Origin: a virus
IMG/VR virus record: IMGVR_UViG_3300025864_000022
Location: 1 to 47,403 of that record
DNA: 47,403 nucleotides
Strand: one strand, 5' to 3'
The position numbers were made by a program, and so were the translations under genes. Below, one piece after another: positions 28,836-47,263 of the stretch (the first letter of the stretch is position 1; each line of letters opens with the position of its first letter). A model generated the notes under the pieces. It ran no database searches. It was not told where the DNA came from and saw only the letters and a program-made list of their open reading frames with translations.

Positions 28836-31201
28836 TCAAGCCTGCAATACAGCAGGAATCAAAGACATTGTTCGTGTCGGATCTAGTACGCAAAGACCCA
28901 ACGTAGCCATTCTGTGTATTACAGCAGAATCTTCATCAAAGGACATATAAGGATTACCCTTTTGACCAGTGAAAGGATTACGTAAACCCCATTGATATCC
29001 ACGATATTCAGTGTCACCTTTAATCTTACATTTGAAGATATTGGGTTGGTCCATTGTACCGATATACATGATATCATAACGATAGGACATAGCCACACCA
29101 CCAAGCGGATGCAAGATCTTATTACGAACTGGATCGTCATAGAAAGAGTCAACATCCAACTTAACACGAACTCCATTGGGAGCCTTATACTCAACGAACT
29201 GGAATCCAGCAGATAGAGCATTAGAGTGAAGTTTAGATTGAACTTTTTCAATAACACCAATAGAACTATTATCCAACATGAACTGAGTCCAACCAGAGAT
29301 AACATTCAATACAGCTTTGTGGAATGCAATAGCACCACGTTCACCAGTTTTAATTACAAAGTAACGATCACCAAAATCAAGTTTAGCAGCAGATAGTTCA
29401 TACAAAGCATCTTCCAGTAGTTTCAAACTAAAGGTGTTGTAATACATAGTATTAGCAACTTCCATTTGTTCAAACAAACCAGCCCCAGTCTTGATGACAT
29501 TACCTGACTTACCAAAGTTCATATATTCACCATTGGAATTTCTGTTAGAAGTACCAAAAGCAAGTACATTGTTTTTATATTCAGAGAACTATTGTTCTAC
29601 TTCCCAATCTACATTGTGCATCCACATCGTAGCAATATCCTTAGTCAAACCACCACTATCTGTGGGTTTTGTAATAGGAATACCTACTGCAAGTTTTTTG
29701 TTAAGCATGTTACCACCAACCTTGTGCTGAATACGAATCTGAGACCACTCATTACGCATAGAGACAGGAGAGGTAAACCTAACATCACCAACTTTTCTAG
29801 AGAATTCTTTTTCTACAGGAGCAAAGTCAATAGAGAAACGTTCACCCGAAAGCAATCGTTCTGCAGGACAACCTGTAGTGTTACCACCCATAAGTTCAAC
29901 CTTATAGACAGCGTTTGTACCTTCCATACGTGCATCACCAAGGATACGGAATGGATAGATCTGATTCAAGTGACCTACGATTACTTCACCATCGGCGAAC
30001 CAATCTTCTGGGAATACTAGATAGAACGGAGCAGTACCTACCCCTGAATTGCTAGAAGCTGATGTAACAACTACACCATTTTCATCTCGTGCTTCTACTA
30101 GAGGAATATTCCTACGAGAGGAACCAATTACATCCCAATAGTATTCACTATCATCCTCAAATTCCCTTGTAGGAAATTGATTCAGGAATGTATCCAGACT
30201 CTTACCTCTGTAATAAGCTAACAACTATACCATGAGGTTAGTTGCTTTTTGGGGAGCCAACTGAAAAATTGAACCTAAGTGATTGTCTTTAGTTAACATT
30301 TGTTATCGTAAAGGCTTTTTATCCTCTACTTCTTACAATTTATCATCTTGTAAGCTCAGCATATATCTTCACCCCAGTAGGGTGTCGTGCACTCGTGGAA
30401 GCTTATATTCTATTTGATGATATAAACATGATTTCCTAAAAGTAGAATAAGGCATATTAACTTGCTTTGCTGCAGATCTCATACTAAAGTTATTGTTAAA
30501 TAACTCTAGGATCTCAGACTTGCTAATCGTATTGTATTTACAATTAGTTAATCCCCTTTTTCTAATCTCGACTTTTTGATTAATTAACTCTGTATAGATT
30601 ATATATCTTGTGACTTTGAAATGTTCTCCCAATTTCTCAAGAGTCCAATTCTAATTCAAGTATAAATCCAATAGTAATTCTGTGTCGATGATTTGTCTTT
30701 TAAACCTTGGTGTGTTACCACCAATACTTACATTGTATCCTTTTGTCTTATCTGTTGAATCAAATAAGTCTATGTAATAGACTTCTCTTTCATCAATTTC
30801 TTCTAATAAACAATTCTCTAATAAATCCATGTAGAAGTTTTCCTTCCCATGTTTTTTCATTGCTCTGTTTATAAGTTGACTTCCATAATCACTGTGTCTC
30901 AAATGTTCTTTCCATCTGAGTTTCATGTCTACTTTTGTCTAACCCACATAAACTTTGCTGTTAGAATTGTTCCTGATAATGTAAATAAATCCTGTTTTCA
31001 TAAATAGTTTCATCTTCTATGCGTTACGGTGGCTACACTTATTAGGGTGTAGTTTACCTCGGTATTGCCCATTTGTAGAAGGGTTTCACCGATTTTGCGC
31101 GATGTTTACCTGCATGTTACCATGTAGGGAGGCTTAACGTAAGGTCAACCTTTCCAATGTTGGAATCCTACCATTTGGTATTTACCCAATTTACCTGCCA
31201 T
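28836..31201 (-). CDS. Major capsid protein (HK97-fold, crAss-like), 504 aa, split by a group I intron
   Basis: Exon 1 is 31148-31201 (18 codons, MAGKLGKYQMVGFQHWKG); exon 2 is 28836-30296 (486 codons plus stop), resuming LTKDNHLGSIFQLAPQKATN. Joined, they give a normal crAss-like capsid N-terminus and the expected length of about 500 residues. Exon 2 has TAG codons at 30225-30227 (in LMVQLLAYYRGK) and 29589-29591. It ends in TGA followed directly by TAA, then a strong terminator. It sits downstream of the scaffold gene, as usual. The intervening 851 bases contain stops in this frame and do not encode capsid sequence, so splicing is needed for a full-length product. Identity is supported by motifs and order; the exact splice bases are inferred from restoring the frame. 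Confidence 0.93.
30297..31147 (-). mobile_element. Group I self-splicing intron in the capsid gene
   Basis: 851 nt. The 5' exon ends in GGT (U before the splice site, as in group I introns) and the intron ends in G (30297), both diagnostic. A candidate P1 pairs the exon end AGGU with GCCU at 31130-31133. A core hairpin resembling P4-P5 is at 31060-31091 (CGGTGAAACCC with GGGCAATACCG on the minus strand), and near the 3' end is a GAAGATATA element typical of the P7/P3 region of group I introns. A homing endonuclease gene occupies most of the interior. Splicing here restores the capsid frame exactly. Subgroup not determined. Confidence 0.85.
30369..31013 (-). CDS. Intron-encoded GIY-YIG homing endonuclease, 214 aa
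   Basis: The N-terminal catalytic module shows the GIY-YIG pattern: GFIYIIRNN (residues 8-16) and KVYVGQT (20-26), followed by basic RWKEHLRH. The metal-binding Glu of the family is probably within the EIDEREVYYIDLF segment. The C-terminal half carries helix-turn-helix-like DNA-binding repeats (SKSEILELFNNNFSMRSAAK, then QVNMPYSTFRKS), as in intron-homing enzymes. Two TAG codons are read as Gln, one being the conserved Gln of the YxGQT motif (30939-30941) and one at 30651-30653. So the endonuclease is adapted to the phage code rather than newly arrived. An alternative start is the ATG at 31001. It should spread the intron into intronless capsid alleles. Confidence 0.87.
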
Positions 31202-45589: not shown

Positions 45590-45735
45590 CTGACTCCTCC
45601 GACTTTAGCTTTGAGGATATATACATGCGCTCAACACCATGTATAGCTAACTAGGGTCCTATCTAGAATGGCCTAGTGCACTCAACTGCGTTTGCTAGCG
45701 TTGACTCTAGTAGAGGCTGTGTTGGTACTATAAGA
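45590..45735 (-). other. Unassigned, hairpin-rich noncoding stretch between tRNA-Thr and the structured RNA
   Basis: No protein frame of useful length. It contains inverted repeats such as ATACATG/CATGTAT (about 45623-45654, 10-base loop) and TCCTC/GAGGA just before the tRNA, and several CTAG tetramers. Probably a transcribed spacer or RNA of unknown function. Confidence 0.4.
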
Positions 45736-45826
45736 TGAGGGGACTACGGAAGCACTTCTGCTCCCTAGCAAGTTTTATTATTTAATGTGGAGTTCCTCAT
45801 ACTCCATTACAGTTGTTGTCCCCTCA
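45736..45826 (-). ncRNA. Candidate structured RNA, three-way junction
   Basis: About 91 nt closed by an 8-bp stem, GAGGGGAC (45818-45825) with GTCCCCTC (45737-45744). Inside are two hairpins: GGAGT/ACTCC with a seven-base loop (45789-45805), and GGGAGCA/TGCTTCC with a four-base loop (45748-45765). It sits 19 bases after the suppressor tRNA, and is not a canonical tRNA because there is no D-arm or TTC T-loop. It may be a degenerate tRNA, a tRNA-like element or a new small RNA. Confidence 0.5.
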
Positions 45827-45844
45827 AAGATCTTTTAATTTAAT

Positions 45845-46393: not shown

Positions 46394-47263
46394 TTATTTT
46401 ATAAGAATTAATTCATTTATTCTCTCTAAATTTATTGTATTAAAACATTCTTTTAATCCATTAAAATATATAGATGGTATATATTTATTATTTTTAAATT
46501 CATTATGTAGAATCTTTTCTAATTCATAAATTCTTTCTGGACAATCTTGATGGGTTTTAATTATATCTAAAGAATAAGGAAATCTTTTAAATCTATATTC
46601 AACATCCTTTGATGTTATTCCAATTTTATAAAAAGATTCTGTTTCATTAAACAATCTTATAATATACAACATTCCAATCCCATTTTTACAATTTCTCATA
46701 AATCCTGGTTTGCCAAATTGTTTTTTCTCATAAGAACATTTAGGACATCCTATACTTCTACACAATATGTTAGATGGGGTTACATAAAAGTCTCCATGTT
46801 CAGGACAAGTAATACAAACCTTTTCCCTACTATCTATAAAATCTAATTTGTCATAATTATAAAAATCTCCAAGTGTTGCTTTTATTTTCTCTTCTGTTTT
46901 ATACTTTCTTTCTGTGATAGAGAGTATTCTTTTTATAGTATTCTTATTATTTAATACATCTGATATGCTTTGTTTGGTTGTTATATTTGTTATAGAATTT
47001 TTTAGACACACAAAATCTTTATCTATGTCTATAATTTCAAAGCGTAAATTATTTGGAATAATAACATTTTCTCTAATATATCTTATTTTAGATTCCTTTG
47101 TCATTAAACAAAATGAATATTTATAACTACTGATTGTATCTTTTTTTATATAATAATAATATTTGTTTTTTCTAACTAACATTATTCCATCCTTTTCTTC
47201 TAAAATAAATAGATCGTATTTTTCTTCTAATCTTAACCAATAGTCTTCTCTTGTAAGTTTCAT
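46394..47263 (-). CDS. Free-standing GIY-YIG/T5orf172-type nuclease with zinc finger, 289 aa
   Basis: Residues about 150-176 hold a zinc finger (CITCPEHGDFYVTPSNILC, then GCPKC) like those in phage homing nucleases. After it comes a GIY-YIG-like catalytic part: GMLYIIRLFN (197-206), FYKIGIT (211-217), R224, and an ELEKILHNEF helix with a probable catalytic Glu. The first ~120 residues look like a separate substrate-binding region. It is not inside an intron and is likely a selfish homing nuclease. No TAG codons, but few Gln. A promoter-like element lies upstream. Confidence 0.72.
   Translation of the reverse strand: MKLTREDYWLRLEEKYDLFILEEKDGIMLVRKNKYYYYIKKDTISSYKYSFCLMTKESKIRYIRENVIIPNNLRFEIIDIDKDFVCLKNSITNITTKQSISDVLNNKNTIKRILSITERKYKTEEKIKATLGDFYNYDKLDFIDSREKVCITCPEHGDFYVTPSNILCRSIGCPKCSYEKKQFGKPGFMRNCKNGIGMLYIIRLFNETESFYKIGITSKDVEYRFKRFPYSLDIIKTHQDCPERIYELEKILHNEFKNNKYIPSIYFNGLKECFNTINLERINELILIK

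Follow-up and report, generated by a model that had tools for sequence, protein, structure and literature searches.

A TAG-encoded motif glutamine in the homing endonuclease of a crAss-like phage capsid-gene intron, and relatives of that intron in phages of both codes

Does a homing endonuclease gene written in the altered genetic code of its phage remain tied to phages with that code? The question is raised by an intron that interrupts the major capsid protein gene in a gut-type, crAss-like phage, part of which forms the window analyzed here (the whole stretch of 47,403 nucleotides of IMG/VR record IMGVR_UViG_3300025864_000022). The intron carries a GIY-YIG homing endonuclease gene in which the Gln of the KVYVGQT motif is encoded by TAG (Table 1). 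The original prediction, made from the sequence of the window, was that the element had adapted to the phage code and that its spread was therefore limited to recoded phages.

Table 1. Features of the window that bear on the intron and its code (positions are those of the window)
Feature	Position	Strand	Basis or remark
GIY-YIG homing endonuclease ORF	30369..31013	-	214 aa when TAG is read as Gln; ends in TGA
TAG codon = Gln25 of KVYVGQT	30939..30941	-	translation; CAA/CAG in standard-code relatives
Second TAG codon = Gln121	30651..30653	-	translation; Gln, Glu or Lys in relatives
Intron, group I-like, 851 nt, contains the endonuclease	30297..31147	-	junction from intronless capsid genes
Major capsid protein gene exon 1, MAGKLGKYQMVGFQHWKG	31148..31201	-	
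Major capsid protein gene exon 2	28836..30296	-	PHROG 11589 major head protein, E 2e-111
Suppressor tRNA, CTA anticodon	45845..45918	-	ARAGORN; Rfam tRNA, E 3e-9

We found that the phage uses TAG as a Gln codon. No ORF in the window ended in TAG. A 76.9-kb IMG/VR contig was 100% identical to the window over the 10.6 kb compared and was counted as the same virus; in this contig TAG made up 287 of the 964 codons read as Gln. In the window, TAG was far commoner among the Gln codons of late genes (243/595, 41%) than among those of early genes (4/44, 9%). In alignments with standard-code relatives, the majority residue opposite TAG was Gln at 38 of 81 positions, and the pooled spread of residues opposite the window's TAG codons was about the same as that opposite CAA and CAG. 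The window encodes a suppressor tRNA, and the recoded sibling G003 has a similar CTA tRNA (83%). The window's tRNA has a U1-A72 pair, as in tRNA-Gln, and charging with Gln is putative. Late-gene TAG opposite Gln and a tRNA with a CTA anticodon are as in code 15 of the Crassvirales type. In the portions of Peters et al. 2022 cited here (PMC9523058), metaproteomics shows TAG read as Gln in code 15 crAss-like phages, and late code switching is proposed. As in the window, TAG is read as Gln in those phages with a suppressor tRNA and chiefly in late genes. In contrast to our intron endonuclease, which is known from sequence, the peptides described in those portions came from structural proteins.

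Capsid proteins were 90-99% identical between the standard-code L094 and L093 and the phages with TAG as Gln (L092, L090 and the window). On the standard-code side of this comparison, G005 has the standard code and no CTA tRNA. For a switch of code, this is a short evolutionary distance. A 255-nt non-coding stretch separates the suppressor tRNA from a tRNA-Thr (45590-45844, minus strand); it folded better than shuffles (z -2.64) and had no family match in Rfam; theta ribozymes have been reported adjoining suppressor tRNAs (PMC10879173). The early region also contains a second endonuclease-like ORF (46394-47263, minus strand), with T5orf172 and DUF723 Pfam matches and TAG at none of its 3 Gln codons.

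The ORF in the capsid-gene intron has the sequence and predicted fold of a GIY-YIG homing endonuclease. Its product, translated with TAG as Gln, begins MKLFMKTGFIYIIRNNSNSKVYVGQTKVDMKLRW, and there was no TAA, TGA or frameshift across the 214 codons. It matched the GIY-YIG family in Pfam (PF01541, E 1.8e-9) and a homing endonuclease in PHROG (E 2e-25). An AlphaFold2 model (mean pLDDT 80) had the catalytic domain of I-TevI as its best PDB match, and the model and the sequence searches (Pfam, PHROG and PDB) together indicate a GIY-YIG domain followed by a helical, HTH-like part. The Tyr, Tyr, Arg, His, Glu and Asn required in the active site of these enzymes are present as Y11, Y22, R33, H37, E77 and N94 and were invariant in an alignment of 13 relatives. 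They match the catalytic set of the GIY-YIG superfamily, to which the position of Gln25 does not belong (PMC1952068). I-TevI, from the td intron of phage T4 (PDB 1MK0, 1LN0), has the same catalytic domain fold and residues and is likewise intron-borne with a C-terminal DNA-binding part. Unlike the phage endonuclease, it has Ser rather than Gln after YVG, uses the standard code, and lies in a different host gene. Closer relatives of the endonuclease were not found in bacterial genomes.

The TAG codon at position 25 stands for a conserved residue. Gln25 was invariant among the 13 relatives, and the residue across from the TAG was Gln in all nine alignments with relatives. The description of this residue as the conserved Gln of the motif is thus correct for the family, but the residue is not catalytic; a catalytic role for Gln25 was ruled out by the alignment, in which I-TevI has Ser there. 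The enzyme was also said to be cut inside its active-site motif under the standard code. Translation from the endonuclease's own start would indeed stop at 24 aa, but the wording is loose, as the TAG directly follows Tyr-Val-Gly. There is also a second in-frame TAG, at Gln121, that the original prediction overlooked. That this allele would give no full-length enzyme where TAG is a stop, as had been predicted, follows from its sequence. Initiation at a downstream ATG had been named as a possible escape. The product from Met30 (30924-30926) would give no nuclease in the standard code, because TAG121 truncates it to 91 aa and it is without the GIY and YVG segments.

Most of the intron is taken up by this ORF; the insertion follows codon 18 in the major capsid gene, in whose second exon 2 of 17 Gln codons are TAG. 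The site is empty in the recoded siblings L090 and L091 (99% identity of the protein encoded by capsid exon 2) and L092 (94%). The intron copies keep an exon T at the 5' end and a G at the 3' end, with the terminal G in all nine copies whose 3' end was located. In most copies the exon sequence ...AAGGGT can form a P1-like pairing with GCCCTT; in the window, ...AGGT pairs with GCCT, a compensatory change in the same helix. Both the P1 pairing and the terminal G were read from the alignment by eye. In the alifold structure of the aligned copies, 20 of 46 pairs had double-sided changes. A U-G wobble at the 5' splice site in P1 and an intron-final G are therefore present, as in group I introns. 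However, Rfam, with its curated covariance models, gave no group I match for the intron at E up to 1, hence the term group I-like; a match may be masked by the 645 nt of inserted ORF. We saw no co-conversion tract at the intron edge, where identity to L090 does not drop.

We found that TAG in the motif is a sense codon in many phages and that its use there is ordinary. The pattern K-V-Y-[I/V/M]-G-TAG-T occurred at 53 places in IMG/VR, of which 37 were in GIY-YIG frames (30 distinct, including this virus). In contrast, none of 25 places with TAA and none of 26 with TGA was in a GIY-YIG frame. The frame is thus not open by chance, and the two controls rule out a chance or nonsense origin of the motif TAG. 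Five of six further carrier contigs had a TAG density of 13-31%, and four of these five encoded a CTA tRNA; the sixth is a 23-kb piece. In the endonuclease of the window, 2 of 7 Gln codons are TAG, which is ordinary against the late-gene rate (p=0.71). We also counted codons in 12 GIY-YIG genes from recoded phages, a small sample not chosen for the trait. The motif Gln was TAG in 3 of the 12 genes (CAA or CAG in 9), and the other Gln codons were TAG in 37 of 114 cases (CAR in 77). This small set gave no support for a special role of a motif TAG; on these counts, the motif position is neither favoured nor avoided for TAG within the sample. The gene is intron-borne and does use the phage code, but to say that it has adapted to that code is too strong, as the frequency of TAG at Gln25 is that of the background.

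The same intron is present at the same capsid-gene site in phages of both codes. Seven copies are in standard-code phages (L002, L006, L009, L010, L012, L013 and L015), and the others are in the recoded L011 and L203, the partly recoded L014, and this virus. Endonucleases in these same-site introns are 45-60% identical to that of the window. Two of the standard-code phages, G006/L010 and Dulem virus 41 (L006), are represented by whole contigs of 93-94 kb; these have no CTA tRNA and 3-4% TAG, which we take as chance frame extension. L002, L009, L012, L013 and L015 are shorter contigs, called standard-code from the stretch examined. The intron family is thus found outside recoded phages as well, and its confinement to them, as originally proposed, is not supported by the sequences compared.

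Codons at the motif position followed the code only in part. The original prediction had suggested a comparison with standard-code homologues, and all seven had CAA or CAG, in line with the reading of the TAG as Gln. TAG was present in the window and L203, and CAA in L011 and L014. Dulem virus 41 (PP511520) and L010, with endonucleases 52% and 59% identical to that of the window, have the same intron at the same site, CAG in the motif, and TAG as a real terminator, in contrast to the window, where TAG is Gln.

Trees of the endonucleases did not group the recoded copies. These copies were scattered and formed a clade in 0 of 200 bootstrap trees; even so, the AU test did not reject a single recoded clade (p=0.13). 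The recoded phage L203 (1388-2011) has the same intron with the same motif TAG, which may be shared by descent or independent; an arrangement with the window and L203 as sisters that inherited the TAG gave AU p=0.43. The L203 endonuclease was 70% identical to that of the standard-code L013 and their capsid proteins only 56%, a difference that hints at movement of the element across codes. In L011 (7868-12903), the capsid gene is in several exons and there are three intron endonuclease genes, with TAG at 0 of 6, 9 of 15 and 1 of 8 Gln codons; these genes look as if they arrived at different times. The L011 genome is strongly recoded (34% TAG), and the gene with 0 of 6 is the one at the window's intron site.

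Based on these results we consider it highly probable that the crAss-like phage, in which TAG is read as Gln, harbours a mobile intron of an ordinary, group I-like kind in its capsid gene, that this intron encodes a GIY-YIG homing endonuclease, and that the TAG codons arose by drift. Two points weigh against this reading. The endonuclease is on a long branch (57% identical to that of L012, compared with 85% for the capsid proteins) and for this reason may be under relaxed constraint and on its way to being lost, and the allele is known in a single independent copy, as the 76.9-kb contig is the same virus. The original reading, in which the motif TAG fits the element to the code of the phage and keeps it from spreading beyond recoded phages, seems unlikely to us. 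The 24-aa product of this allele under the standard code and the motif TAG of L203 are what that reading expects, but it does not account for the standard-code copies of the family, for the CAA in the recoded L011 and L014, or for the lack of enrichment of TAG at the motif, and in a mixed infection the donor could supply the tRNA. We judge it very unlikely that the motif TAG is a timing gate, holding back the nuclease until suppressor tRNA accumulates late and sparing the genome or the capsid transcript early. The preference for TAG in late genes of the window and the late code switching proposed in the cited portions of PMC9523058 are consistent with such a gate. However, TAG is no more frequent at the motif than at other Gln codons, the homologous gene of the recoded L011 has none, and a capsid transcript that is late in any case has no need of a further gate. 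It is extremely improbable that the endonuclease is a decaying pseudogene whose TAGs are true nonsense mutations. The long branch of the endonuclease in the tree is consistent with decay. Yet the reading frame is intact and the catalytic residues are kept, relatives have Gln across from the TAG, and the capsid gene, too, depends on TAG being read as sense.

A further reading concerns the direction of transfer and is possible, if somewhat doubtful. Transfer from standard-code to recoded phages would be easy, and the reverse would stall once TAGs were gained; since TAG would be gained at the background rate of the host, the number of TAGs would record the time spent in recoded phages. In the standard-code L006, L009 and L010, the terminator of the endonuclease gene is TAG, and a further stop follows after 2 to 11 codons. 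Entry into recoded phages would thus be easy, because a TAG terminator would at worst be read through for a few codons. The L011 gene without TAG at the shared site, beside a capsid-intron gene with 9 of 15 in the same genome, is also as expected. However, 0 of 6 at a rate of 34% has a probability of 0.08 and is not significant, and the endonuclease trees do not resolve the direction of movement. The wider proposal, that phage codes are one-way valves for homing introns and that TAG-laden elements cannot sustain homing outside recoded phages, is tentative and we think it rather improbable.

On the preferred reading, an ordinary mobile intron, synonymous drift would have put TAG in the endonuclease gene, as at about 40% of the Gln codons in the surrounding late genes. 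The capsid mRNA and the intron ORF would be made late, at a time when UAG is read as Gln by the suppressor tRNA. In coinfecting phages, capsid alleles that lack the intron would then be cut by the endonuclease and would receive a copy of the intron during repair. Natural empty sites were seen in L090, L091 and L092; cutting of the intronless allele and homing are predicted. First transfer into a standard-code phage would not be blocked in a mixed infection, because the donor would supply both enzyme and suppressor tRNA. It is only the next step that would fail: once in a standard-code recipient, this allele could not move on before reversion of its TAGs.

Recoded stops in mobile elements of crAss-like phages have precedents. 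Yutin et al. 2021 (PMC7886860) described a Delta-group phage whose TerL inteins contain several TAG codons and a Zeta-group phage in which several TGA codons lie within the intron ORFs of PolB, and found group I introns to be typical in the MCP of the Delta group. Here, in contrast to the TerL inteins and PolB introns, the TAG is in the motif of an MCP-intron endonuclease; the main text of that paper has no mention of GIY-YIG or its motif codon. The window intron is a further case of recoded stops inside intron ORFs of crAss-like phages, which had already been reported. Many phages share the use of TAG for Gln, and the single motif TAG codon is unremarkable. Copies of one intron at one site in phages of both codes, together with recoded siblings with and without it, make a clean natural set, and with this comparative set it might become testable whether mobile elements are isolated by a change of genetic code.
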